DNA of 64,000 nucleotides from Roseovarius halotolerans. Its GTDB lineage: Bacteria > Pseudomonadota > Alphaproteobacteria > Rhodobacterales > Rhodobacteraceae. This document shows, piece by piece, positions 51,076-64,000 of this stretch (the stretch's first letter is position 1; each line of letters begins with the position of its first letter). The position numbers and the translations under genes were made by a program. The stretch is from the NCBI RefSeq assembly GCF_900172255.1, contig NZ_FWFU01000001.1:248001-312000 (forward strand), given 5' to 3'. A model generated the notes under the pieces. It made no database searches. It worked only from the letters and a program-made list of their open reading frames with translations, and was not told where the DNA came from.

Positions 51076-52035
51076 TCATTCCGCGGCCTGAGAGGCAGCA
51101 GGCGGCCATTCCACGGTTTCGCGGCGCTGATAGGGGGTGAACCAGTCGGGGTCGGTGCGGTATTCAACGCGCCCGTCAGGGAACAGCCGCGCCACCGCGC
51201 GCCGGGAGCTGAGGCAGAAGGCGTGGACGCTCATCTGCATGCCGCCGGTATGGCAGTAGCCGACCTCGATATTGCAGTCGATCACCATGTTCTTGCCGAC
51301 GAACCCCATCGCGCCCATGCCGATCGAATTGCCCAGTTCCTTGAACTCGTCCTCGAGCTCGGCGATCTTCGGATCGCTGTTGCGGCTGCCCACGGTGCGC
51401 AGCGTCGATGCGCGCTTGCCCAGCACCATGCAGGTATCCTTCGAGCCGCCCAGCCCGATCCCGATGATCGCGGGCTGGCAGGCAAGGCCGCGCTTGCCGA
51501 ACGCCACCAGCGTATCGAGATAGAACCGCTTGATCCCCTCGATTCCGTCCGAGGGGAACAGCATCCGGTAGTCGGTGCCAAACAAGCCGCCCTTGTGGAC
51601 GGTGATGAGATCAATCCAGTCGCCTTCGGGCTCGAACCCGTATTCGATTTCAGGAGCGCCGATGCCGACATTGTTGTTGTGATCCGTGCGCCAGAGCGGA
51701 TGCACCCGGTTGGGGCGCAGTGGCACGCCGTTGGTGGCACGAGCGGTGGCGCGGCGCAGGGCTGTTTCCAGTGCCAGCATCCCGCCTTCGACCTGGGCCT
51801 CGTTGCCCATCTTCACATACCAGCGCGGCACGCCGGTATCGCCGCACATGGCGCGGCGGTCCTCTTTCGCGGCGTCGTAGTTTTCCAGCATTGCCTGAAG
51901 CACGAAGGATGAGAGATCCCCGTCCTCGGTCTCGGCGGCGGCCTTGAGCCCGTCGAGGTAGTCCTGCGGGATCTCGATGGCGGCCTTGTCCATCAGGGTT
52001 TCGGCCGTTGTCTGGATCTGGTCGATGGGTATCAT
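51076..52035 (-). CDS. Class I fumarase / L(+)-tartrate dehydratase, alpha subunit
   Basis: A 319-residue subunit carrying the catalytic [4Fe-4S] cluster. Cluster-ligand cysteines are likely Cys64 in RRAMCGDTGVP, one in LACQPAIIGIGLGGSKDTC and one in VGYCHTGGMQ. Further signatures are LRPNRVHPLWRTDHNNNVGI and HKGGLFGTDYRMLFPSDGIE. The start overlaps the flavoprotein stop by ATGA, linking hydration to oxidation of the same substrate. Two-subunit members act on fumarate, tartrate, mesaconate or related acids; the substrate here is not resolved. Confidence 0.9.
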   Translation of the reverse strand: MIPIDQIQTTAETLMDKAAIEIPQDYLDGLKAAAETEDGDLSSFVLQAMLENYDAAKEDRRAMCGDTGVPRWYVKMGNEAQVEGGMLALETALRRATARATNGVPLRPNRVHPLWRTDHNNNVGIGAPEIEYGFEPEGDWIDLITVHKGGLFGTDYRMLFPSDGIEGIKRFYLDTLVAFGKRGLACQPAIIGIGLGGSKDTCMVLGKRASTLRTVGSRNSDPKIAELEDEFKELGNSIGMGAMGFVGKNMVIDCNIEVGYCHTGGMQMSVHAFCLSSRRAVARLFPDGRVEYRTDPDWFTPYQRRETVEWPPAASQAAE

Positions 52036-53804
52036 TGGGCTGCTACCAGTGTTTCGGGTTCGCCCTCGGGCAGGATGGTTTCGCCGGGGCGAACGATGGT
52101 GAATTGAACGGGCGCGCGCGTGACGCTGACGCCGTTGTCGGAGTCGCTGTCGCCGTCACGCCGGGCCACGGTGAAGTAGGAATTCTCCAGATCGCCTTCG
52201 TCCGGGAAATCCTCGCGGTAATGGGCGCCGCGCGAGTTTTCGCGCCACAGGGCCGCGCGGGCGATAACCTCTGATATATCACAAAGCGAGGCCAAGTTCA
52301 GCCAGTCATGCCAGGTGAGGTTGAAGGCGAGGTTGTCGGCGGACACCCCGGTCTCCATGAGTTCGGCGCGAATCGCGTCGACCTCGTCGATGCCGCGGCG
52401 CAGCTTGGATTCGGTGCGCATGACGCCGACATCTTCCCACATGGCCTCTTGCAGTTTCTGGCGCAGGGGCTGCACGAGGCCAGCGGGTTTCGAGAAGGGC
52501 CGGGTGGCGCGGTCGATTTCGGCGGCGAGGATGGTTTCGTCGGGGTCGCGCAGCGCGCCCATGTTGCGAATGTCGCTACCCATCACGTCGCCCGCGATGC
52601 CGCCATAGACGGTGGAATTGGCCACGCCGTTGCCGCCAAGGCGGTTCGAGCCATGCGCGCCGCCCGCGTCCTCGCCCGCCACGTAAAGCCCTTCGAGCGC
52701 GGTGCGGGTGTCGACATCGACCACCACGCCGCCCATGAAGTAATGCGCCGTTGGCACCACCTCGACGCGCCCGCCGGCAAGGTCAAAGCCGCAATCGGCG
52801 CAGCGCTTGACCATGCCCTTGAACTTCTCGGCCACGAAATCCGCGCCCAGATGCCCCATCGAGATATAGACGCCGCCATTCTCGGAGGTGTTGTTCTTGC
52901 GCATCTCTTCATAGATGCAGCGGCTGACCACGTCGCGGGTGGCGCGTTCGCCCTTGCCGTCATAGTCGAACATGAAGCGGTTGCCCGCACCGTTCAGAAG
53001 ATGACCGCCCGCGCCGCGAAGCCCTTCTTCGAGCACGGTGCCGGTCATCCGCGTGTGATCCCCGGCCAGAAGGCCGGTGGGATGGAACTGCACCATTTCC
53101 ATGTCGCGCAGCGGCAGGCCGACGCGCAGCGCCATTGCCAGCCCGTCCATCGTCTTGTCGCCCGAGGGCGTGTGATACTTGTACATGGTCGGGCCACCGC
53201 CGGTGGCCATCAGCACCGTCTTGGCGCGCACGAGCCGGAAGCGCCCGGTGCGCATGTCGATCATCAGAACCCCCGCGAGCGCGCTGCCGTCGGCCGTCGG
53301 GATCAGTCCGATAGCGCGGTGTTCCTGCAGTTTCTCGACCGGGCGGGCCAGCACCTGTTCCATCAGGCGGTTGATGATCTCGATACCGGTCAGGTCGCCC
53401 TTGTGGACGGTGCGGTCGGCGGTCTGCCCGGCGAAGGCCTTTTGATGCAGGGTGCCGTCCGGGTTGCGGTCGAAGAAGCAGCCGACCTCGTTCTCGAGTT
53501 CGCGGATGCGCACGACCGCCTGTTCGCAAAGCCGCCAGGCCATGTCCTGATTGGGGAGCCACTTGCCGCCCTTGACGGTATCCATGAAATGGCGCTCGAC
53601 GGTGTCGCCGCCGCCCATCGCCACGTTATAGCCGCCCTGCACCATGCGGGTGCAGCCGCATTTGCCGATCAGCCCCTTCACCGCGATGGTGATACGGGTG
53701 CCCTCGGGCGCGGATTGCTGGGCATGGAGCGCGGCAAACAGGCCCGCCCCCCCGGTGCCGAGGATCAGGATGTCGGTGTCATGTCGGTCGATATCGTGGC
53801 GCAT
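52032..53804 (-). CDS. Succinate dehydrogenase/fumarate reductase-like flavoprotein subunit
   Basis: A 590-residue FAD enzyme. The Rossmann loop is ILILGTGGAGLFAAL (about residues 12-26). Residues that bind the dicarboxylate are conserved: His241 in QFHPTGL, Arg290 in ATRDVVSR, His354 in TAHYFMGG and Arg388 in HGSNRLGGNG. The position of the covalent FAD-binding His of SdhA/FrdA is Cys51 in GCTRMVQGG, so FAD is probably non-covalent, lowering its potential. It is the fourth gene of the operon, three bases after the cytochrome b-like subunit. The substrate is likely succinate-like but may be substituted. Confidence 0.88.
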   Translation of the reverse strand: MRHDIDRHDTDILILGTGGAGLFAALHAQQSAPEGTRITIAVKGLIGKCGCTRMVQGGYNVAMGGGDTVERHFMDTVKGGKWLPNQDMAWRLCEQAVVRIRELENEVGCFFDRNPDGTLHQKAFAGQTADRTVHKGDLTGIEIINRLMEQVLARPVEKLQEHRAIGLIPTADGSALAGVLMIDMRTGRFRLVRAKTVLMATGGGPTMYKYHTPSGDKTMDGLAMALRVGLPLRDMEMVQFHPTGLLAGDHTRMTGTVLEEGLRGAGGHLLNGAGNRFMFDYDGKGERATRDVVSRCIYEEMRKNNTSENGGVYISMGHLGADFVAEKFKGMVKRCADCGFDLAGGRVEVVPTAHYFMGGVVVDVDTRTALEGLYVAGEDAGGAHGSNRLGGNGVANSTVYGGIAGDVMGSDIRNMGALRDPDETILAAEIDRATRPFSKPAGLVQPLRQKLQEAMWEDVGVMRTESKLRRGIDEVDAIRAELMETGVSADNLAFNLTWHDWLNLASLCDISEVIARAALWRENSRGAHYREDFPDEGDLENSYFTVARRDGDSDSDNGVSVTRAPVQFTIVRPGETILPEGEPETLVAAQ

Positions 53805-53807
53805 GGG

Positions 53808-54149
53808 TCAGATCGCCTTGAGAAAAAATGTGCCGGAAACGAAGAAGGCCAGCGCCAATGCGGCGGCGGCGGCGGTTTTCTGGCCCTGAGACCAGGGGAG
53901 CCACTCCATCGCCAGGAGACGCAGGCCCCCGAAGAAATGCACCGCCAGAAGGAAAACCAGGCCGAATTCGGCCAGTTTGACTGCCGGGTTGTCGGTGAAG
54001 GCAAGCATGGCATCAAGTTCATCCGGTGCGGTCAGGGCCTTGGACAGAACCCAGAAATGCAGCGGCAGGAACAATGCCAGCGCCAGTCCCGAAACACGGT
54101 GAAGCAGATAGGCGAGCCAGAGCGGGTGGGTGCGGGCCGGACGGATCAT
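53808..54149 (-). CDS. Succinate dehydrogenase cytochrome b-type membrane anchor (SdhC-like)
   Basis: A 113-residue protein with three transmembrane helices. The N-terminal block HPLWLAYLLHRVSGLALALF is followed by LPLHFWVLSK, with a possible haem-ligand His; a second helix is GLVFLLAVHFFGGLRLLAME and a third lies in AAAALALAFFVSGTFFLKAI. The HRVSG string is a hallmark of SdhC/FrdC anchors. ATG at 54149 overlaps the SdhD-like stop by ATGA. It anchors the flavoprotein and iron-sulfur subunits and passes electrons to or from quinone. Confidence 0.85.
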   Translation of the reverse strand: MIRPARTHPLWLAYLLHRVSGLALALFLPLHFWVLSKALTAPDELDAMLAFTDNPAVKLAEFGLVFLLAVHFFGGLRLLAMEWLPWSQGQKTAAAAALALAFFVSGTFFLKAI

Positions 54150-54478
54150 GCTGCGGTCACGGCCCAGACGGCGCGTGCTCCCATAGCCAGAAGTCCAAGG
54201 CCGGTGGCCCAAGTCAGCGCCGACAGCGCCGCGCCCTTGAGACCGGCCCATTCATGCACGATCACGCGGATGCCGATCGCGGCATGGATCGAGACTGCCA
54301 GCACGAAGAGCCCGTAGAACAGGAGCCAGAACAGAGACCCCTGGGTGCGTCCGAGGATCTCGGCGCTGCTGAGGCCACCCTGAATCGCATAGATCATCAC
54401 CGCGATATGGCCCAGCACCAGCGGTGCCATGATCAGGGCCGTCAGGCGCTGCGCCATGTAGAGTCTGAAATCAAGCAT
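54146..54478 (-). CDS. Succinate dehydrogenase membrane anchor (SdhD-like)
   Basis: A 110-residue protein with three helices: RLTALIMAPLVLGHIAVMIY, SLFWLLFYGLFVLAVSIHAA and LTWATGLGLLAMGARAVWAV. The QRLTALIMAP start and the histidines in LGHIAV and SIHAAIGIRV fit a haem- and quinone-binding anchor. ATG at 54478 lies inside the end of the iron-sulfur gene (8-base overlap) and its stop overlaps the SdhC-like start by ATGA. A longer frame running to 54823 is a shadow of the iron-sulfur gene. Confidence 0.82.
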   Translation of the reverse strand: MLDFRLYMAQRLTALIMAPLVLGHIAVMIYAIQGGLSSAEILGRTQGSLFWLLFYGLFVLAVSIHAAIGIRVIVHEWAGLKGAALSALTWATGLGLLAMGARAVWAVTAA

Positions 54479-55205
54479 CGCGCCGCCTCCGGAACACTCG
54501 CCGCACGGTTTCACGTTTGAGACCGGCAATGGCTGACATCGGGTCGAGTTCATTGGGACAATATTGCGTGCAACTGCCCATGGAGTGACAGTTGTGGCAT
54601 CCGCCGCCGCCCGAAACCGCATCGAGGATCGACGCACCACCGCCGTCCCGCGTGTCATTGAGCAGCGTCCAAGCGCGCTGCAGCGCGGCCGGGCCAAGGT
54701 AGTCGGCATTGCCCGCCACAGTGTCGCAGGCCGCGTAACATACTGCGCAGTTGATGCATTCGATCCCGGCATCCGCCGCCTGCCGCGCGCCAGAGTCCGC
54801 ATCGACATGCGCGATCGGGTCATGGCGGGTGCCGGTGGGATGATGCACCGCCTCGGCCTCGACCCATTTGTCGAAGAACGGGTCCATGTCGGCGGCGAGA
54901 TCCTTGATCACCGGCAGGTTGCGCAGCGGTTCGATACGCAGGCTGTTGCCCTCGGCGACCTTCTGCACATGGGTGCGGCAGGTCCAGCGTGGCGTTCCGT
55001 TGACCATCATGGCGCAGCTGCCGCACATGCCCACGCGGCAGGCATAGCGATAGGTCAGGGTCGGGTCGGCGAATTGCTGAATCCAGCTGACCACGTCCAG
55101 AACCGTCTGGCTTTCGCGGGCGGGCACCTCGAAGGTTTCGAGTGCACCACCATCGGCTGACCCACGCCAGACCGAAACTTCAAGAACCTCCGCCTTGGTC
55201 GTCAC
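54471..55205 (-). CDS. Succinate dehydrogenase/fumarate reductase-like iron-sulfur subunit
   Basis: A 244-residue protein with three Fe-S centres visible: [2Fe-2S] in YACRVGMCGSCAMMV with a further Cys in RWTCRTH; [4Fe-4S] in ECINCAVCYAACDTV; and the [3Fe-4S]/[4Fe-4S] ligands in GCHNCHSMGSCTQYCPNEL. It carries electrons between the flavoprotein and the membrane anchors. GTG at 55205 has GGGAGG eight bases upstream. It is the first gene of the six-gene operon, preceded by an AT-rich promoter region. Confidence 0.92.
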   Translation of the reverse strand: MTTKAEVLEVSVWRGSADGGALETFEVPARESQTVLDVVSWIQQFADPTLTYRYACRVGMCGSCAMMVNGTPRWTCRTHVQKVAEGNSLRIEPLRNLPVIKDLAADMDPFFDKWVEAEAVHHPTGTRHDPIAHVDADSGARQAADAGIECINCAVCYAACDTVAGNADYLGPAALQRAWTLLNDTRDGGGASILDAVSGGGGCHNCHSMGSCTQYCPNELDPMSAIAGLKRETVRRVFRRRRDA

Positions 55206-55499: not shown

Positions 55500-56915
55500 G
55501 TGCAACACAATGCGATCTGCCAAGACGACAGCCTGACCGATGAACTGCCCGGCGGCGTAACGCTGCTGCACGGTCAATATGAAATCGAACAGCAACTGGT
55601 CGGGGGCGGCTTCGGGCTGACCTATCTCGCGCGTGACAGCCTGGACCGGCGCGTGGTGATCAAGGAATGCTATCCCAGCGCGCTCTGCCTGCGCCGGGGC
55701 CGCGAGGTGCGGCCGCGCAGTGAAAGCCAGGAAGCGCAATATGAAAGCGTGATCCGCAATTTCATCATGGAGGCACGGCGTCTTGCGCGGCTGGATCATC
55801 CCGGCATCGTGCGGGTTCACCAGGTGTTCGAGGAAAACAACACGGCCTACATGGCGATGGACCTGGTCGAGGGGCTGGACCTGCTGACGATTCGCCAGGA
55901 GGATTCGCCGCGCCTGACACGGGAGGTGCTGGAAAAGGCGCTGCGCGACACGCTGGATGCGCTGGGCTATGTGCATGGGTTCGACATGCTGCATCGCGAC
56001 ATCTCGCCTGACAATCTGCTGCTGGGCGAGGATGACAGTCTTACGCTGATCGATTTCGGCGCCGCGCGAGAAGGGTATTGTCAGAAGTCGCGTGCGCTGT
56101 CGGCAGTGCTGTCGGTCAAGGACGGCTATTCGCCCCATGAATTCTACCTCAAGGACATGGCGCAAACCCCGTCGAGCGATCTCTACTCGGTGGCGGCGAC
56201 ATTCTATCACCTGATCACGGGCTCGGCCCCGCCCGACAGCCAGAAACGCCTGGCGGCGATGGCGTCCGATTGCGCCGATCCCTATCAGCCGCTGGCGCTT
56301 GGCCCCTGGAACCTGCGCCACAACATGCTGGTGACGATCGACCGCGCATTGTCGGTGGCGCCGCAGGACCGGATCCAGTCGGTTGCGGAATGGGTCGAGC
56401 TTCTGGACTGCGAAGAGCTGCTGCCGGTCGACGCCGTGCAGGAGGAAACCGGGCAGGTGCCCGCCGAACGGGTCAAGGAGCTGGACCCTGCGCTGTTCAA
56501 GGCGATCTCGTCGCTGGTGCGTGACACCAACAGCCATCTGTCGCCCGGCCCGCATGACCGCGCCTTGCGCGCCATGCATGTGCGACACGGGCCGGCGGCG
56601 CCCAAGGCAGAGCGCCAGGATGACCAAACGCGCCCTGAGCAGCTGTATGACATCTTCGGAGAGCCGGTCGACGATGTCGAAGCATGGTTGAAGGAACAGG
56701 ACCGCCTGTCACGGAAGGGCGCTTGTGATGGGACCGGGCAGGCAGGCGCAAAGCCCGAAGGGACGCGCCGGTCGGGATGGGCGAAACGCGCCCCGCGTCA
56801 GACCCTGGCGGCGGGTTATGACGAGACACGCCCGACATCGCTTCTTTCCCGGCTTGTCCGCGCCCTCGTGAAGGGGCGGCGCAGGTCGGGTGACGAAGAA
56901 ATGATCCGGAACTGA
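55500..56915 (+). CDS. Serine/threonine protein kinase
   Basis: A 471-residue Hanks-type kinase. Visible motifs: glycine loop VGGGFG (34-39), catalytic Lys55 in VVIKECYP, Glu91 in IMEARRLARLDHP, HRD at 165-167 in MLHRDISPDNLLL, and DFG at 185-187 in LIDFGAAREG. The catalytic domain ends about residue 300; the rest is charged, Pro-rich and without a transmembrane helix, so it is cytoplasmic. GTG at 55500 is the only plausible start before an upstream in-frame stop; the ribosome site is weak. It heads an operon with an FHA protein, a PP2C phosphatase and GTPases. Confidence 0.92.
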   Translation: MQHNAICQDDSLTDELPGGVTLLHGQYEIEQQLVGGGFGLTYLARDSLDRRVVIKECYPSALCLRRGREVRPRSESQEAQYESVIRNFIMEARRLARLDHPGIVRVHQVFEENNTAYMAMDLVEGLDLLTIRQEDSPRLTREVLEKALRDTLDALGYVHGFDMLHRDISPDNLLLGEDDSLTLIDFGAAREGYCQKSRALSAVLSVKDGYSPHEFYLKDMAQTPSSDLYSVAATFYHLITGSAPPDSQKRLAAMASDCADPYQPLALGPWNLRHNMLVTIDRALSVAPQDRIQSVAEWVELLDCEELLPVDAVQEETGQVPAERVKELDPALFKAISSLVRDTNSHLSPGPHDRALRAMHVRHGPAAPKAERQDDQTRPEQLYDIFGEPVDDVEAWLKEQDRLSRKGACDGTGQAGAKPEGTRRSGWAKRAPRQTLAAGYDETRPTSLLSRLVRALVKGRRRSGDEEMIRN

Positions 56916-56926
56916 AGGGATCGGAG

Positions 56927-58207
56927 ATGAAATTCATACGCGACATCATCGGCGAGAAGCGCCAGAACGCGGAGGGCGATGCGATGCCTTTCGAGCAGGA
57001 TCACGCGGCCGCAGCCGCGCCGGACGTATCTGAACCGGCACATGCCGCGCCATTGCAGCTGGATGCGTTCAGCCGTGTGCCGCCCCAAGAGGTGGTGCCG
57101 GATCGAGACGAGGCGGACCGGCGGTCCGATGCGCTGGCAGGATATGCAGGTTTCTTCGACTCCGGGGCAGAGGATCGCACGGAGGACGAAACCCGCCGGG
57201 CGGGTTTCGAGGAGGAGACCGAGGCGGTGGATCCGACCGCGGAGTCGATCCGTATGGCTCTGACGGCTGCGAAGGCGGATGATGCCGAGGATGAGGTGTT
57301 GGCGGATCCGTGGGCGGAGGAGGAGGTTGATAATCTCTGGCACGAGGATTCCGCCGACGCAGCGTTTGACGTGCCGGGAGAGGAGCCCCTGGACAACCAA
57401 GAGACCGCCGACGAGGGCCTTGATGCTGTTCTGAGCGCGATGCGTGCGGGCGGGGCGGAAGCAGAGGCGACGCAACCGGATGACGCGCCGCTTGAACGCC
57501 GGGAGGCGCCGCGCGCGCCCGAGGCGGAGCGGGCGGCGATCCTTCCCGAGGTTGACGTGCCGCAAGAGGACGTCCCTGCAGCCGCCGAAACCCGGCAGCC
57601 GCCAGAGGCAAGCGCGCCAGAGGCCGCAACACCTGTCGAGCCGGCAATGAGCTGCCCGGCACCCGACGCCGAACCTTCGGCGCCGGTGGATGTGACCGCA
57701 CCGGCCCTGGGCCGCGCGGCGGGGCGCGCCGGACGCGTCAAGACAAGGCTGCTGGGCTTCAATGGCGGGCAGACGCCGGGGCTTGATCCTCTGGCGGCGG
57801 AGCGCGAAAGGCCTGACGCGCCCGATACGCGCTTTCCTGTCGGTTGGCTGGTCGTGGTCAAGGGACCGGGGCGCGGCGAGGCATTCACGCTGCAGACCGG
57901 CGTGGCCCAGATCGGACGCGGCGCGGGACAGCAGGTTCGGCTTGATTTCGGCGATAACAGCATTTCGCGCGAGAACCATGCCGCGATCGCCTATGATCCG
58001 GAGCAGAAAGCCTTTTTCATCGGCCACGGCGGCAAGGCCAATCTGGTGCGCCGCAATGGCCGCCCGGTGCTGAGCACCGAGGAGATGCAGGCCGGCGACC
58101 TGATCGTGATCGGCGAAACGACGCTGCGCTTTGCGCCGCTCTGCGGTCCTGAGTTCAGCTGGGACGAGGGGCAGGACAGCAGCCATGCCCAAGCCTCGCT
58201 TGCCTGA
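56927..58207 (+). CDS. FHA-domain protein
   Basis: A 426-residue protein. Residues 1-300 are acidic, low-complexity and probably disordered, rich in Ala, Glu, Asp and Pro, giving many possible phosphorylation and docking sites. The C-terminal FHA domain starts near GWLVVVKGPGRGEAFTLQTG and holds the phospho-Thr-binding core QIGRGAGQQVRLDFGDNSIS with RENHAAIAYD, so it should bind targets of the adjacent kinase. It is 11 bases after the kinase gene, and its end overlaps the PP2C gene by 23 bases. Confidence 0.88.
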   Translation: MKFIRDIIGEKRQNAEGDAMPFEQDHAAAAAPDVSEPAHAAPLQLDAFSRVPPQEVVPDRDEADRRSDALAGYAGFFDSGAEDRTEDETRRAGFEEETEAVDPTAESIRMALTAAKADDAEDEVLADPWAEEEVDNLWHEDSADAAFDVPGEEPLDNQETADEGLDAVLSAMRAGGAEAEATQPDDAPLERREAPRAPEAERAAILPEVDVPQEDVPAAAETRQPPEASAPEAATPVEPAMSCPAPDAEPSAPVDVTAPALGRAAGRAGRVKTRLLGFNGGQTPGLDPLAAERERPDAPDTRFPVGWLVVVKGPGRGEAFTLQTGVAQIGRGAGQQVRLDFGDNSISRENHAAIAYDPEQKAFFIGHGGKANLVRRNGRPVLSTEEMQAGDLIVIGETTLRFAPLCGPEFSWDEGQDSSHAQASLA

Positions 58208-59084
58208 ATTCCTTTATGACGCCGCGATGGTCATCGACCAGGGGCGGCGCGCGCGTCAGGAGGATGCGATCGTGTCGGATTTCCCGACCGGGAACGGCTT
58301 TGGCTTCGTGGTGCTGGCCGATGGCATGGGCGGGCATGCGGGGGGCGATGTCGCCAGCAAGATCGTGGTGACCGAAGTGTTCAGCGAGTTGAAGATGCAA
58401 TCGGGAGATCCCGAGGTGCTGGAGCAGCGGATCGGGGATATCCTGGGCGATGCGGCGCTGAGTGCGAATGAGTGCATCGGCCTCTATTCCAGCCGTTCGC
58501 CCGAACATGAGGGCATGGGCGCGACCCTTTTGGCGCCGGTGCTGATGGATGACCGGCTCTACTGGGTGTCGATCGGGGACTCGCCGCTTTACCTGTTTCG
58601 CGACGGCACGCTGAGCCGGTTGAACGCGGATCATGTGCTGGTGTCGCAGATTGATTTCATGGTGAACAGCGGGCTGATGGGGCGCGAAGAGGCGGTCAAT
58701 CATCCCGACCAGCACTGTCTGACATCGGTTCTTGCCGGGCGTGACATAGCGCAGATCGACTGCCGCGCGACGCCGGTGCGGCTGGCGCATGGCGATATCG
58801 TGATCGCTGCCAGCGACGGGCTGCAATCGCTGAGCGAGCCACGGATCGAGGCGCTGCTGCGCTTTGCCGGAAACCAATCGGCCGAGCGCATCGCGGACGG
58901 GCTGTTGCGCGATATCGCGCGGCTGGATGACCCCTGGCAGGACAATGTCTCGTTTTGCGTGATCAAGGTGCAGAAACAGGGCGAACCGGCGCAACCCGCC
59001 GAAGACCCGGTGCTGCGCCGGAAGTTCAAGGCGCGAAACGGCTCGGTCACGATTCTGGCCAAGGTGAAGCGGAGCGCCGGATAA
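58185..59084 (+). CDS. PP2C-family serine/threonine phosphatase
   Basis: A 299-residue metal-dependent protein phosphatase. Metal-binding residues are visible in RARQEDAIVSD (24-27 RQED) and VLADGMGGHAGGDVASK (45-54), with later family blocks WVSIGDSPLYLFRDGTLSRL, VIAASDGLQSLSE and DPWQDNVSFCVIKV. It should reverse the phosphorylation done by the kinase two genes upstream. The start ATG at 58185 lies inside the FHA gene. A short C-terminal tail (RKFKARNGSVTILAKVKRSA) is basic and unusual. Confidence 0.92.
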   Translation: MPKPRLPEFLYDAAMVIDQGRRARQEDAIVSDFPTGNGFGFVVLADGMGGHAGGDVASKIVVTEVFSELKMQSGDPEVLEQRIGDILGDAALSANECIGLYSSRSPEHEGMGATLLAPVLMDDRLYWVSIGDSPLYLFRDGTLSRLNADHVLVSQIDFMVNSGLMGREEAVNHPDQHCLTSVLAGRDIAQIDCRATPVRLAHGDIVIAASDGLQSLSEPRIEALLRFAGNQSAERIADGLLRDIARLDDPWQDNVSFCVIKVQKQGEPAQPAEDPVLRRKFKARNGSVTILAKVKRSAG

Positions 59085-59107
59085 GGCGCAAGCACGGGGA
59101 AAGCGAA

Positions 59108-60358
59108 GTGAGCATTGCCGAGAATATGAACCCTGTCGTGGCGCGCCTGGAAACCGTGCTGGAGGCTTCGGATGTTCCGGCGCCCTATCATCGCTGGGGC
59201 GCGCGGCTGTTGTCACATCTGCGCAAGCCGGTGCAGGTGGTCGTGACCGGCCTGCCGGGAAGCGGCAAGACCGCGCTGTTGAACATGCTGGCGGGGCAGA
59301 ACGTGCTGGGCGGGCAGGGTGCTCAGGGCGGTGCGGAGGTGAGCGAGATCACGCATGGCAGCGACGCGCGCACCCTGTTCGAGCGGCGCGACGGGTCGGT
59401 CAGGCAAAGCGTGGGGCTGGCGCGCGATGCGGTCTGGCCGCAGGATGTAAGGCGGGTGCGCCAGGAATTGCCGGACCCGGAACTGGCGCGACGGAGCCTG
59501 ATAGAGATCGGCCTGCCAGCCCATCCCGACGCGCAGATGACGCGGCTTCAGGAGATTGTCGCGCAGGCCGATATCATCCTGTGGTGCAGCGAGAGTTTCA
59601 CCGCCGCCGAACAGCGCCTCTGGAGCGCCGTGCCCGACCCGATCAAGGATCACAGCCTGCTGGTGTTGACGATGGCCGATCGTCAGGTAATGCGCGGGAT
59701 TCTCGGTCAGACGATCGCCGCGCTGGAGCCGGTCGTTGCCGAGGAGTTCCTGGGGCTATACCCGGTGGCGACGATGCAGGGGTTGAGCGCGCTGACGGCG
59801 GGCGACGGGGTGGATGGTGATCTCTGGGCCGCAAGCGGCGGCAAGGCCCTGGCGCAATGCATCGCGCACCAGGCCGAGCTGGGCCGCTCATCGGATGTGG
59901 ATCAGGCGCAGCTGTTGCTGGACAGGCTGAGCGCGCATAGCGGGCGGGGCCGCGCGGCGCCTGTCACGGCCCCCGCGCCCACGGAACCGCAAGAACCCGC
60001 GAGACCCGACACCACGGGCAGTCCTGCGCAAGGTGAGGCGCTGATGGATGCCGCAACGCTGTTGCAGGACCGGGCGGGCAGGATGCTGGAGTTGCTGGAC
60101 GAAAGCGAGGATCTGGACAGCGATGCGCTGCTGGATCAATGCGTCGATGCCGTGGCCGCCCTGGCCGGGATCATGGAGCGTGCGCCCCAGGATGACTCCG
60201 ACGCCGCCGATCTGCGCTTGGACCTGCAGGACGGCGAGGAAATGCTGCTGCTGTTCCAGCTCGAACGCGGCGAGGAGGCGGCGCTGGATGCGGTGACGCT
60301 GCTGTTGCAACTGCGCAAGGAAATGGTCGGGAAAACCGCCGGGAGGGCGCAATCATGA
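59108..60358 (+). CDS. P-loop GTPase-like protein, cluster member 1
   Basis: A 416-residue protein with a Walker A motif GLPGSGKT at residues 48-55 in VQVVVTGLPGSGKTALLNML. Switch and G4/G5 elements are less clear; DIILWCSESFTAAEQRLWSA and SLLVLTMADRQ occupy the expected G3/G4 positions, and ATMQGLSALTAG the next. The second half (after about residue 280) is Pro/Ala-rich, then acidic and helical. GTG at 59108 has a purine-rich GGGGAA upstream; a longer in-frame extension is a shadow of the PP2C gene. It overlaps the micro-ORF downstream by ATGA. Confidence 0.75.
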   Translation: MSIAENMNPVVARLETVLEASDVPAPYHRWGARLLSHLRKPVQVVVTGLPGSGKTALLNMLAGQNVLGGQGAQGGAEVSEITHGSDARTLFERRDGSVRQSVGLARDAVWPQDVRRVRQELPDPELARRSLIEIGLPAHPDAQMTRLQEIVAQADIILWCSESFTAAEQRLWSAVPDPIKDHSLLVLTMADRQVMRGILGQTIAALEPVVAEEFLGLYPVATMQGLSALTAGDGVDGDLWAASGGKALAQCIAHQAELGRSSDVDQAQLLLDRLSAHSGRGRAAPVTAPAPTEPQEPARPDTTGSPAQGEALMDAATLLQDRAGRMLELLDESEDLDSDALLDQCVDAVAALAGIMERAPQDDSDAADLRLDLQDGEEMLLLFQLERGEEAALDAVTLLLQLRKEMVGKTAGRAQS

Positions 60359-60504
60359 GCGTTTCCAACCCCGGCGCCAGCCCAATTGTCACCACATTCA
60401 GGTTCCACCTTTCGGCAGTGAGTCCAGTGAGTGACGCCCTTGTTCAGGCCCCCGATACCCCAACCGAAACAGCCCTTTGCCCAACGCAGGCGGATGACGC
60501 ATGA
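60355..60504 (+). CDS. 49-residue micro-ORF coupled on both sides
   Basis: An open frame of 49 codons that starts with ATG overlapping the upstream GTPase stop (ATGA at 60355-60358) and ends with TGA overlapping the ATG of the large GTPase (ATGA at 60501-60504). The product starts MSVSNPGASPIVTTFRFHLS and continues with a Pro/Thr-rich, acidic tail containing one Cys. No family is recognised. Double 4-base overlaps match the rest of the operon and favour a real coupled gene over a chance frame, though the gap is also explained if it only carries ribosomes forward. Confidence 0.55.
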   Translation: MSVSNPGASPIVTTFRFHLSAVSPVSDALVQAPDTPTETALCPTQADDA

Positions 60505-62564
60505 ATATCAAGGCAGAGATTGACCCCACCACCGAGATCAGGGCGCAGGCGCGCCCGACCAACCTCAAGGCCGGGATGGAGGCCCTTGCGCAATTCGCGC
60601 AGGAGGCCGCGAGCATCGAGAATGCACTGGAACAATTGGCCGATCTGTCGGGGCCGGATGCGGCGCGCGCCGTCGCAAAGCTGAAGACGCAGCTTCAGGG
60701 GTTCGAGCCCTGCGTCACGCTGCTTGGGCAGGTGAAATCGGGCAAGACCTCGCTCATCAACGCGATGGCGGGCTGGTCCGATCTGTTGCCGTCGGACGTC
60801 AATCCCTGGACCTCGGTTGTGACCTCGCTGCACCTCGCCCCAGCCAGTCGGCGCGCTGAAACGGGCGCGCGATTCCGTTTCATGACCGAAGAGGAATGGG
60901 ATCGTCTGACCGTCAAGGGCGGACGGATCGGCGAGTTGGCGGGGCGTGCGGGCGCCGAGGGTGAGCTGGAAAAGATCCGCCGCCAGATCGACGCGATGCG
61001 CGACAAGGCGCGTGCGCGCCTTGGGCGCAATTTCGAGCTGTTGATGGGGCAGGAGCACGATTACGGCTTCTTCGACAAGAACCTGCTGGAGCGTTACATC
61101 TGTCTTGGCGACGATTTCGATGCTGGCGGCGCGGATGAGGGCGTAGAGGATCAGGGGCGTTTCGCCGATATCACGCGCTCCGCCGACCTGTTCCTGAACT
61201 GCCAGGCCGTGCCCTTCCGCATGTGCCTGCGCGACACGCCGGGCGTGAACGATACCTTCATGATGCGCGAGATGGTGACGATCAAGGCTGTGCGCGACAG
61301 CCGGATCTGCGTGGTGGTGCTGTCGGCGGGACAGGCACTGACATCGGTGGACATGGCGCTGATCCGCATGATCGCGAACCTTCAGTCGCGCGACGTGGTG
61401 ATCTTTGTGAACCGGATCGACGAACTGCCCGACCCGGTGGCGCAGATCCCCGAAATCGAAGAGAGCATCCGCCAGACTCTGAAAGACCATGACGGCCCTG
61501 CCGGAGCCGAGATCATCTTTGGCAGCGCGGCTTGGGCCAACACGGTGCTGAGCGGCGAGCTGGAAGAGATGAACAGTGCCAGTTCGCGGGCGCTGATCGC
61601 CTGGACGGAGGCCAAGCTCGAACTGTCGGACAGCAACCATTCGCCCGCTAATATCGTGTGGGAAATGTCGGGTCTTCCCGCGCTCTGGAAGGCGCTGAGC
61701 AGGCGGATCGTGACCAATCTGGGCGCGCCCTGCCTGGCCGGGATCGCCCGCCCGGCGATTACGCTGGCGACATCGCAGGAGGCCGCCGCATCGGTCGAGG
61801 TGCAGGGCCGAGGATTTGCCGACGGGATCGGTGCGCAAGAGCTGCGTGCGCAAATGGATCGGGTCGCGCACGAGGCGCTGGCGGCGCTGGAAGGCGATCT
61901 CGATTCAATCCTCGATGAATACCGCGCCCGAGCCGTGCGTGCGCATGAGACCTTCGTGGATCGGGCCACGCATTCGCTGCTCGAACATCTGGAGCAGCGC
62001 GGATCGGACGAGATGTGGGAATATGACCCGGCCGGGTTGCGCATCCTGTTGCGTTCGGCCTGGTCGGTGCTGGGCAGCCGCACGCGCAAGGCGGCGGAGG
62101 CGCGCTACGAAGAGGCCGTGGGCGCGGCGGCGGGAGTGCTTTATCGCGGGTTCGGACCGGCGGTCGAGGGAGTCCGGCTGGGCGTGCCTGATGTGCCCGA
62201 ACACCCAGCGCCGGTGGCCCTGGCGCAGACGATCGCGCTTGATTTCAACGATAGCTGGTGGGCCGCCTGGTGGCGGCGCACGCGCGGCTACAAGGCTTTC
62301 GCCAAGCAGTTCCGCCAGTTGATCATCGGTGAAACCGAAGACTTCATGACCCAGATGACCGATATCCAGACCCGTGACATCCGCGCCGGTATTCTGGCGG
62401 GGCTTGGCGCGTTCTTCGATCAGCAGCAGGATATCCTGATGGAACTCGGCGCAGGCGCAGAAGGTCGGGACGATGTCGGCGCGCTGTTCGGGACGGGCGA
62501 CGAACAGGCCCGGCGCGAGGCGCTGAACGGCGCGCTAACGATCCTCGAACGGCATGTCGCATGA
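60501..62564 (+). CDS. Large dynamin-like GTPase, cluster member 2
   Basis: A 687-residue protein. GTPase motifs are G1 GQVKSGKT at 76-83 (TLLGQVKSGKTSLINAMA), Thr at SVVTSL as a possible switch I, G3 DTPG at 245-248 in CLRDTPGVNDTF, and G4 NRID at 304-307 in VIFVNRIDELPD. The remainder is helical, like a dynamin stalk, with a Trp/Arg-rich patch NDSWWAAWWRRTRGYKAFAK near residue 590 that could contact membrane. It overlaps the micro-ORF upstream and the third GTPase gene downstream by ATGA. Function is unknown; membrane remodelling or signalling are possibilities. Confidence 0.85.
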   Translation: MNIKAEIDPTTEIRAQARPTNLKAGMEALAQFAQEAASIENALEQLADLSGPDAARAVAKLKTQLQGFEPCVTLLGQVKSGKTSLINAMAGWSDLLPSDVNPWTSVVTSLHLAPASRRAETGARFRFMTEEEWDRLTVKGGRIGELAGRAGAEGELEKIRRQIDAMRDKARARLGRNFELLMGQEHDYGFFDKNLLERYICLGDDFDAGGADEGVEDQGRFADITRSADLFLNCQAVPFRMCLRDTPGVNDTFMMREMVTIKAVRDSRICVVVLSAGQALTSVDMALIRMIANLQSRDVVIFVNRIDELPDPVAQIPEIEESIRQTLKDHDGPAGAEIIFGSAAWANTVLSGELEEMNSASSRALIAWTEAKLELSDSNHSPANIVWEMSGLPALWKALSRRIVTNLGAPCLAGIARPAITLATSQEAAASVEVQGRGFADGIGAQELRAQMDRVAHEALAALEGDLDSILDEYRARAVRAHETFVDRATHSLLEHLEQRGSDEMWEYDPAGLRILLRSAWSVLGSRTRKAAEARYEEAVGAAAGVLYRGFGPAVEGVRLGVPDVPEHPAPVALAQTIALDFNDSWWAAWWRRTRGYKAFAKQFRQLIIGETEDFMTQMTDIQTRDIRAGILAGLGAFFDQQQDILMELGAGAEGRDDVGALFGTGDEQARREALNGALTILERHVA

Positions 62565-63496
62565 CAGGGGAGGCAATTTTGACAACCGCAGCAGAAGAAT
62601 CCGGCAAGATGCCCGCCCGCAAACCGCGGCTGGCATTGATGGGGGAATTCAGCGCGGGCAAGAGCACCCTCAGCAACATGCTGTTGGGAGGCAGAGCTCT
62701 GCCTGTGCGGGTGACGGCCACGCGCTTGCCTCCGATCTGGATCTCATATGGGCCGGATTCGGTGGTGGCGGTGTCGCATGACGGAGAAGAGCGTGCGCTG
62801 AGCATCGCGGAGCTTGCGCATGTGTCGCTGGAGGACACGAAGTTCATCCGCATGCAGATGGTGGCCGACACGCTCGAGATCTGCGACCTCATCGACATGC
62901 CCGGCATTTCCGATCCAAACATGGCGGCGGAGGTCTGGCAATCGCTGATCGACGAGGTCGACAGCGTGGTCTGGTGCACCCATGCCACGCAGGCCTGGCG
63001 GCAATCCGAGGCCGCGGTCTGGGAGGAAATCGCAGGTGCTACCAACGGACGCAACCTGCTGCTGGTCACGCAGATCGACAAGCTGCGCAAGGGGCGTGAA
63101 CGTGGGCGGGTGATGTCACGCGTCGGGAAGGAAACCGAAGGTCTGTTCGAGGCGATCTATCCCATATCGCTGACAGGTGCGATCGAGGCGGGCGAGGACG
63201 CTGCGCTTTGGCAGGAGAGCGGCGCGGCGGATTTCGTCGAGCATCTGGTCGAGCTGCTGCTGAGTGCCGAGACCGGTCAGCGCGCCGCAAGCCCGCGCGC
63301 CGACGGCGCCGACCGGGCGACGACGGGCGCCGAGATCGTCCAGATGTCGCGGCGCGCAACGGTTGAGGACGAGAGTGCGCAGGATGATGTGGCGGAGGAC
63401 GGACCACGGGTCAGGCCCAAGCGGGTGCAGCCCCCGGTTGATCAGCCAAGGCGCTCGCGACGGCCCGCGCGGCGAGAGGCGGCGGATGGTGGCTGA
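62561..63496 (+). CDS. P-loop GTPase, cluster member 3
   Basis: A 311-residue protein with an intact GTPase domain: G1 GEFSAGKST at 28-36 (RLALMGEFSAGKSTLSNMLL), possible switch Thr in RVTATRLP, G3 DMPG at 112-115 in DLIDMPGISDPN, and G4 TQID at 170-173 in LLLVTQIDKLRKG. The GEFSAGKST form is typical of dynamin-family and related bacterial GTPases. The tail after about residue 230 is Arg/Pro/Asp-rich and probably disordered. It overlaps the dynamin-like gene by ATGA. Confidence 0.85.
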   Translation: MTGEAILTTAAEESGKMPARKPRLALMGEFSAGKSTLSNMLLGGRALPVRVTATRLPPIWISYGPDSVVAVSHDGEERALSIAELAHVSLEDTKFIRMQMVADTLEICDLIDMPGISDPNMAAEVWQSLIDEVDSVVWCTHATQAWRQSEAAVWEEIAGATNGRNLLLVTQIDKLRKGRERGRVMSRVGKETEGLFEAIYPISLTGAIEAGEDAALWQESGAADFVEHLVELLLSAETGQRAASPRADGADRATTGAEIVQMSRRATVEDESAQDDVAEDGPRVRPKRVQPPVDQPRRSRRPARREAADGG

Positions 63497-63529
63497 GCCG
63501 TTTGAAATCTATCCGGCAGGAGCAGGCGC

Positions 63530-63907
63530 ATGATCCATTCGGAGCGTCTTGATGCGATGCGCGCAGATATCGCGGGATGTTCGCTGGTGTCCTTTGGCGA
63601 TCTTCAGACCGCGCTTGCGCTGCGCACCAGTTCCGCAGCGCCCTGTCCGCGTGAAAAGCTCGACGAGATTTTCGCCCAGGCGGTGGCCAGCTTTGCCGCG
63701 GCGGACAAGCTGGCGCAGGACATGGCGCAAGGCGGTGAACCGGCCGAAGATACGCTGGTGATGACGCCGCGCGACCTGCGGGTTTTCGTGCGTTCGCAAA
63801 GCAATGGCGCGGATGTGGTCTGCGCGGTGGGTGACAGCCACGAGGCGGTTCCGGCAATGATAGCATCGGCGCGCGAGCTGTTGCGCGTCGCGGCAAGGGG
63901 CGGCTGA
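63530..63907 (+). CDS. Small unrecognised protein of the GTPase operon
   Basis: A 125-residue soluble protein starting MIHSERLDAMRADIAGCSLV, with a mixed alpha/beta pattern: MTPRDLRVFVRSQSNGADVV, then CAVGDSHEAVPAMIASAREL. Size and pattern are reminiscent of Roadblock/LC7 or small adaptor proteins that often accompany bacterial GTPases, but I see no decisive motif. A ribosome site AGGAG lies upstream of the ATG; its stop overlaps the next start by one base (TGATG). Confidence 0.7.
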   Translation: MIHSERLDAMRADIAGCSLVSFGDLQTALALRTSSAAPCPREKLDEIFAQAVASFAAADKLAQDMAQGGEPAEDTLVMTPRDLRVFVRSQSNGADVVCAVGDSHEAVPAMIASARELLRVAARGG

Positions 63908-64000
63908 TGAGACGCATGATGCACGCCAGACCGACGCCGGATCGCGACGCCGCCAGACGCTTGCGCGAGAAGCTGATGCGCCTGTCGGCGAACGCTGCGG
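63907..64000 (+). CDS. Gene cut by window end, same operon
   Basis: Only the first 31 codons are present. The N-terminus MRRMMHARPTPDRDAARRLR is basic, with a helical Arg-rich start. ATG at 63907 shares its A with the previous stop codon, so it continues the overlapping operon. No prediction of function is possible. Confidence 0.6.
   Translation, partial: MRRMMHARPTPDRDAARRLREKLMRLSANAA

Follow-up and report, generated by a model that had tools for sequence, protein, structure and literature searches.

A conserved roseobacter operon joining a kinase, an FHA protein and a PP2C phosphatase to a dynamin-family GTPase pair and a predicted Roadblock-fold protein

Temporal and spatial control of bacterial dynamins is, to our knowledge, largely open. 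Here we describe an operon of eight genes (K, FHA, PP2C, G1, DLP, G3, Rb and S8) at the right-hand end of a 64,000-nucleotide stretch of the Roseovarius halotolerans genome (contig NZ_FWFU01000001.1, positions 248,001 to 312,000; hereafter the window). In this operon a write-read-erase set for phosphothreonine, with a conserved candidate phosphosite, lies beside a pair of dynamin-family genes and a gene for a protein with a predicted Roadblock fold, so that phosphorylation control of a bacterial dynamin becomes directly testable. Dynamin genes occur in a multi-gene set in LeoABC of Escherichia coli, and we know of no kinase, FHA, PP2C or Roadblock component of that system. Roadblock proteins are regulators of Ras-like GTPases; here such a protein accompanies dynamin-family ones. 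Relevant precedents are MglA-MglB and the actinobacterial conservons (PMC2907295, PMC13343842) and the threonine phosphorylation pathway of the type VI secretion system (T6SS), PpkA-Fha-PppA (for example PMC3953482 and PMC6082577), in which, by the title of PMC3953482, Fha is the reader of a phosphothreonine on a component of the machine.

The operon shares with the T6SS pathway the grouping of kinase, FHA and PP2C genes, but differs in that their neighbours encode dynamin-family GTPases and a predicted Roadblock-fold protein, and in that no TssB was found in the genome. With the bacterial dynamins BDLP (PDB 2j69), IniA (6j72), SynDLP (7zw6) and the Campylobacter jejuni pair (5oxf/5owv, known here from PDB titles) it has in common the fold that the DLP model matches and, as in dynamin pairs, two dynamin-family genes in tandem; unlike those pairs, one partner (G3) is stalk-less and the phosphothreonine trio and Roadblock-fold protein are attached. 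As for LeoABC, DLP (1e-8) and G3 (4e-5) gave weak, partial matches to the PADLOC LeoA profile, and LeoA (4aur) stood at rank 19 among the fold matches of DLP. As in MglA-MglB and the conservons, a Roadblock protein is encoded beside GTPases in a signalling operon; however, these GTPases are dynamin-family rather than Ras-like, and the trio takes the place of the usual histidine-kinase-like CvnA input. The conservon hallmarks CvnD (a Ras-like GTPase) and CvnC were not found, DLP and G3 matching Dynamin_N and G1, Rb and S8 matching nothing above the Pfam cut-offs. No PADLOC defence system (PD-T4-6 and MADS included) gave a full-length match together with its partner set: K matched many generic models in its kinase region, and the six other operon proteins scanned (all except S8) gave only weak LeoA, LeoBC, mad8 and PDC-S73 matches. 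Among the papers listed in searches of open-access PMC, none, judged by title, joined a Roadblock protein, or FHA and PP2C, with a bacterial dynamin. The original prediction for this DNA, a reading of the letters and open reading frames (ORFs), knew of no described system of this composition. The recognisable parts belong to known families and the combination is new as far as these titles show, the logic of the T6SS trio being applied to a dynamin-Roadblock module.

The features of the operon, all on the + strand, are as follows.

55500..56915, + strand: K, Ser/Thr protein kinase (Pfam Pkinase, 6e-28)
56927..58207, + strand: FHA, protein with a C-terminal FHA domain (Pfam FHA, 4e-5)
57740..57760, + strand: KTRLLGF codons (Thr273), conserved threonine motif directly N-terminal to the FHA domain; candidate phosphosite
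58185..59084, + strand: PP2C, PP2C-type protein phosphatase (Pfam PP2C_2, 3e-12)
about 59108..60358, + strand: G1, P-loop protein, GTG start likely (Dynamin_N 0.007, nothing over the Pfam cut-off)
60501..62564, + strand: DLP, 687-aa dynamin-family GTPase (Pfam Dynamin_N, 1e-11)
62253..62291, + strand: W-rich basic segment WWAAWWRRTRGY in DLP, residues 585-597 including the preceding Ser; candidate membrane-inserting tip
62561..63496, + strand: G3, stalk-less dynamin-family GTPase domain (Pfam Dynamin_N, 2e-11)
63530..63907, + strand: Rb, 125 aa, predicted Roadblock/LC7 (MglB-like) fold
63907..64704 (L002:8907-9704; window part 63907..64000), + strand: S8, 265 aa, without family match

The original prediction had placed the kinase, FHA and PP2C genes with three GTPases and a small protein in one operon, and its gene list and coordinates were correct. 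It had also expected the operon to run past the window, and reading rightwards adds exactly one gene, S8, which ends 704 bases beyond. The "many" ATGA overlaps it described were overstated: a single ATGA overlap (DLP/G3, 62561-62564) and a 1-nt TGATG overlap (Rb/S8, 63907, where S8 starts on the last base of the Rb stop codon) are present. The other junctions are an 11-nt gap (K/FHA), a 23-nt overlap (FHA/PP2C) and gaps of about 23 nt (PP2C/G1), 142 nt (G1/DLP) and 33 nt (G3/Rb). A 49-aa frame between G1 and DLP (60355-60504), joined to both by stop/start overlaps, is present in the nearest relative and not conserved further, and was set aside as due to chance.

The operon is more than a chance grouping because its gene order is kept across genera. 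The nearest named relative at the locus is Roseovarius sp. EGI FJ00037 (DLP 91% identical), and among 40 further loci from relatives (20 kb each unless the contig ended sooner) the same order was found, as far as detected, in 32, the differing ones being L055 and L067-L073. Scanning with hidden Markov models was extended to 121 loci (our own, these 40, and the best 80 of 505 relatives in the named scan), a redundant set, since the two routes share genomes, with some loci cut at contig ends. The exact order K-FHA-PP2C-G1-DLP-G3-Rb-S8 was present in 92 of them, at DLP identities down to about 43-48%; the 29 others comprise several at a contig end, some short of one detected gene, and other architectures. 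Conservation is lower in the flanks, where the next commonest family is found in 11 of 41 loci.

The original prediction had called for neighbourhood searches on the co-occurrence of the dynamin-like and third GTPases with the trio, and between kinase and dynamin the association proved strong. We used the 244 genomes of the search at the level of order, all those listed belonging to one family, with thresholds of E<=1e-3 for DLP and E<=1e-30 for K. DLP was found in 84 and K in 82 of them (both in 77, DLP only in 7, K only in 5), so that K is present in 77/84 DLP-positive versus 5/160 DLP-negative genomes; one of the seven DLP-only genomes (G215) has a marginal, partial match of 5.6e-4. In 70 of the 77, K lies within 10.1 kb of DLP on the same contig. 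At 1e-20, neither a class sample (289 genomes, 4 from the family) nor an overlapping phylum sample (349, 23 from the family) yielded a DLP in any other family; 3-4 first-look candidates were scored per genome, so that divergent relatives may be missed.

K (471 aa, GTG start) has the catalytic lysine, HRD and DFG, and in the window it is soluble, with no transmembrane segment; PP2C retains the conserved aspartates and DGMGGH. The FHA protein (426 aa) begins with 265 acidic, Ala/Pro-rich residues and carries its FHA domain, which retains G-R...S-R..H and N, at residues 329-396. Its linker is poorly conserved, with the exception of R-x-K-T-R-L-L-G-F directly N-terminal to the FHA domain. The pattern [KR]T[RTK][LF]LGF was matched by 110 of 124 FHA ORFs (a redundant set) and by no other ORF of these loci, and the remaining 14 have the same threonine in the variants KTRLIGF, KTRILGF, KTRVLGF, RTRLVGF, RTRLIGF and RTRLLGH; a back-translated KTRLLGF pattern has its single match in the whole 3.7-Mb genome at the FHA gene. 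A hydrophobic residue three positions after the threonine is what FHA ligands favour, and the placement of the motif recalls GarA and OdhI, in which the phosphothreonine lies just N-terminal to the FHA domain. From its sequence context Thr273 is a likely candidate phosphosite.

The description of the large GTPase as dynamin-like was borne out by its Dynamin_N match and BDLP-like predicted fold. DLP carries the motifs GQVKSGKT, DTPGVND and NRID, and the P-loop G/K, DTPGVND and N-R-x-D columns are invariant in 33 alignment rows. Its structure model shows a long helical stalk of the BDLP type and matches BDLP, IniA and the C. jejuni pair over most of its length; a PDB search by sequence alone gave weak matches to BDLP, C. 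jejuni DLP, Fzo1 and Der. The segment WWAAWWRRTRGY is conserved and sits, in the model, between the final two long helices of the stalk. G3 has the motifs GEFSAGKST, DMPG and TQID and a poorly conserved tail. G1 resembles G3 in sequence, with degenerate switch motifs, and no Ras/MglA-type small GTPase was found above the Pfam cut-off among the operon proteins. As a separate observation, P-x-R-V is conserved in the G3 tail (gene at window 62561-63496; P286 and R288 in at least 90% of 123 rows) and is possibly a docking motif.

The small protein Rb had been described as unknown. This stands as regards Pfam, which has no match for Rb of the window (Robl_LC7 appears at 0.08, below the cut-off, in one of four relatives), but not as regards structure, since a Roadblock/LC7 fold is predicted. 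The model is confident (pLDDT, the predicted local distance difference test, 92), with the a-b-b-a-b-b-b-a arrangement of the Roadblock fold; its top seven matches among solved structures are MglB chains (best 1j3w, E 3e-6), and the further matches listed are, by title, Roadblock, Ragulator or dynein-complex chains. An Rb profile including divergent relatives also retrieves proteins that NCBI names roadblock/LC7; because four divergent-type sequences were contained in that profile, the comparison of folds gives the cleaner evidence. In 127 of 143 loci, a redundant set, a Roadblock ORF on the strand of DLP is no more than 4.5 kb away from it; among the 16 others, nine are, to judge by their lengths, truncated at DLP or beside it, and the remaining seven include two same-genome pairs. 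In S8, a stretch of the type EID-TVLPR...NRRL is conserved within the N-terminal half and a Trp close to the end is near-invariant; a profile search found five relatives among the 7996 candidates with most shared words. The idea that S8 is a second Roadblock domain was rejected in a profile-profile comparison (probability 0.2%). In one annotated Leisingera copy G1, Rb and S8 are each annotated "hypothetical protein".

Our preferred reading, to which we give a probability of about one half, is that the operon encodes a dynamin machine that works at the inner membrane under the control of phosphorylation, Rb serving to tune the dynamin pair. A cue from the envelope or the cytosol would switch on K, which would phosphorylate Thr273 of FHA, in the motif observed there, and perhaps also a GTPase. 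The FHA domain could then rebind in cis or to a GTPase partner, by which the DLP-G3 pair would be recruited or released, and PP2C would reset the phosphorylation. DLP, with its predicted BDLP-like fold, would assemble on the membrane through the conserved W-rich tip, while the GTP cycle of G3 or G1 would be adjusted by Rb, much as that of MglA is by MglB. We infer both the membrane action and the phosphorylation control of the dynamin pair. If true, bacterial dynamins would here be under a novel type of control, in which a phosphorylation signal starts and stops the remodelling of membrane.

A possible input is suggested by a sister clade whose kinases resemble receptors and whose loci encode binding proteins of a wall type. 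Among the 107 different kinases of the tree set, 15 have a hydrophobic (transmembrane) helix C-terminal to the kinase domain, followed in 14 cases by a long tail. Solute-binding-type proteins are encoded, within the stretches read, in 12 of the 15 loci with a transmembrane kinase (same-genome loci merged) versus 0 of 92 with a soluble one. The raw tally for transmembrane kinase and partner was 9 yes/yes, 6 yes/no, 1 no/yes and 92 no/no; for three loci another stretch from the same genome supplied the missing part, and the no/yes case is a cut-off kinase (L063, from the genome of L175). One partner type combines PBP_like_2 and OmpA, well above the Pfam cut-offs, and the other has LysM and/or SBP_bac_3 matches; remaining partners were assigned by BLAST to Pfam-scanned seeds, and at two plasmid loci they bear the annotation "transporter substrate-binding domain-containing". 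Because a kinase with a transmembrane helix and long tail goes with solute-binding proteins bearing LysM or OmpA-type domains, the input in this clade is likely, on these sequence features, to be a periplasmic ligand or the state of the cell wall, and that two different partner types serve the clade supports a periplasmic input there. The window version has a cytosolic kinase and no solute-binding partners; elsewhere in its genome a LysM-type match covers 56 residues of the LysM part, and a full-length PBP-OmpA relative (32%) lies unlinked on contig C8. Taken together, one might tentatively picture, with rather less confidence than our preferred reading, a roseobacter signal-to-membrane relay, in which wall-anchored binding proteins and a transmembrane (in the window cytosolic) kinase would act through the KTRLLGF motif of FHA on a BDLP-type dynamin pair under Roadblock GTPase control, so that the inner membrane would be remodelled on cue, mirroring the signal-triggered control of eukaryotic dynamins.

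Several observations weigh against a phosphorylation-gated machine at the membrane. It is position in the model that makes the W-rich segment a candidate membrane tip, and the sole transmembrane-like stretch among the eight operon proteins lies inside the GTPase domain of DLP. As to the sister clade, five partners of the LysM/SBP_bac_3 type were scanned and two exceeded a cut-off, both for LysM; moreover, 14 of the 15 transmembrane kinases form one clade (99/95; L062 stands apart), and the link with solute-binding proteins is therefore in effect one evolutionary event. Seven of the 84 DLP-positive genomes have no K and seven more have K only elsewhere. Of these 14, 11 were inspected (all except G019, G210 and G215): three (G155, G171, G175) have FHA-PP2C-G1-DLP-G3-Rb-S8 with kinases elsewhere in the genome, one locus (G243) begins at a contig end, in another (G080) the contig breaks off between FHA and PP2C, the dynamin-GTPase pair of G094 is a divergent one, and G057, G063, G088 and G159 have dynamin loci without an adjoining trio, the kinase locus of G057 lying elsewhere. 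Divergent DLP-G3 genes with a Roadblock gene of a second sequence type lack an adjoining trio in eight loci (L055, L068, L069, L070, L163, L168, L169, L170), four of which have a second DLP-GTPase pair. A closer relative, L189, reads G1-DLP-G3-Rb-S8; its locus lacks kinase, FHA and PP2C genes, and its genome (G237) has no K at 1e-30. Conversely, L164 (K-FHA, PBP-OmpA, G1, Rb, S8) and L166 (K-FHA, PBP-OmpA, G1, PP2C, a second FHA protein and an S8-like ORF) have no dynamin in the stretch read; the signalling half may serve other outputs.

Since the DLP-G3-Rb core exists without the trio and K-FHA-G1 without dynamin, the coupling is not obligatory. GTPases without the trio, which the original prediction had held would tell against it, are found in the divergent cores and in L189, so that this objection holds in part. 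The trio-less loci, with the frequent Roadblock neighbour of DLP, indicate that the deepest core is dynamin, G3 and Roadblock, to which the trio, G1 and S8 are joined in the majority type. A side observation concerns kinase-less tandem operons of the form DLP-G3-DLP2-G3' (L068, L069, L070, L168, L159), with four dynamin-family GTPases per operon and, except in L159, which is cut near its left end, a second-type Roadblock gene.

The nearness of a Roadblock ORF to DLP in most loci, the MglB-like fold of Rb (MglB being the GTPase-activating protein of a polarity GTPase) and the degenerate switch motifs of G1 would also fit GTPases acting as signalling switches, in a system for polarity or localisation resembling MglAB, where the Roadblock protein regulates G1 or G3, dynamin is a scaffold and phosphothreonine the input. 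We consider this unlikely, as the operon has no Ras/MglA-type small GTPase above the Pfam cut-off, the stalk predicted for DLP is BDLP-like and its W-rich tip is conserved.

That the operon is instead a kinase-switched anti-phage or stress-abortive defence system built on dynamin, PADLOC having LeoA-type models, has thin support and seems to us quite unlikely. Patchy presence (5 of 11 same-genus genomes among those listed) and plasmid copies (18 PLSDB records, only from Leisingera, Ruegeria and Rhodobacter) would suit it, as would the weak LeoA match of DLP and the generic PD-T4-6 matches of K. However, ten flanking proteins from two loci had no PADLOC match at 1e-3, save histidine-kinase models for the neighbouring histidine kinase; no defence gene was recognised in the annotated flanks of three plasmid loci, no phage record matched DLP, and the SBP/LysM/OmpA partners fit envelope sensing.

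The same operon members recur rearranged in other roseobacters: a Ruegeria locus reads DLP-G3-Rb-S8-DLP2-G1-K-FHA-PP2C followed by two genes for solute-binding proteins (SBP-SBP), and Leisingera sp. S132 has G1, PP2C, FHA, two such genes and K on one strand and DLP-G3-Rb-S8 on the opposite one. Opposite strands in one lineage, and loci holding either module without the other, might suggest two independent modules (trio with G1; dynamin-G3-Roadblock) that merely have a common promoter and are transferred jointly. We regard this as improbable given that the association persists in different gene orders and that K and DLP co-occur in genomes as strongly as described above. Finally, that the trio, which matches PpkA, Fha and PppA in its enzyme types, is a T6SS threonine-phosphorylation pathway that drifted beside unrelated GTPases is largely refuted and very improbable, since the order with the GTPases is kept across genera, the genome lacks TssB and the downstream ORFs read include no recognised T6SS gene.

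The original prediction had seen no T6SS structural gene in the window and had named such genes directly downstream as evidence against itself. None was recognised among the downstream ORFs read, and the TssB/VipA model PF05591 has no match in the genome, with a positive E. coli control; TssB was the one T6SS gene searched for genome-wide, TssC, TssM and others being outside that search. A coherent phosphothreonine and dynamin operon, not linked to T6SS by the tests made, is supported.

To the right of the operon, a histidine-kinase gene follows after 105 nt, and then an oppositely oriented gene resembling acyl-homoserine lactone synthases as well as two response-regulator genes; within L002:9810-15051 (window about 64810-70051), one response regulator has a GGDEF match below the cut-off. 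Homologues of the histidine kinase and regulators occur near the operon in 8 of 41 loci and of the synthase in 7 of 41, sometimes upstream or reordered, and from reading the sequence a P450-like gene stands beside this set in some loci. To the left, at window 51076-55205 on the - strand, genes of the succinate dehydrogenase/fumarate reductase type for iron-sulphur, flavoprotein and membrane-anchor subunits diverge from the operon across about 290 nt, and an SdhA/SdhB pair is likewise upstream of the operon in two of the 40 further loci (L034, L035).

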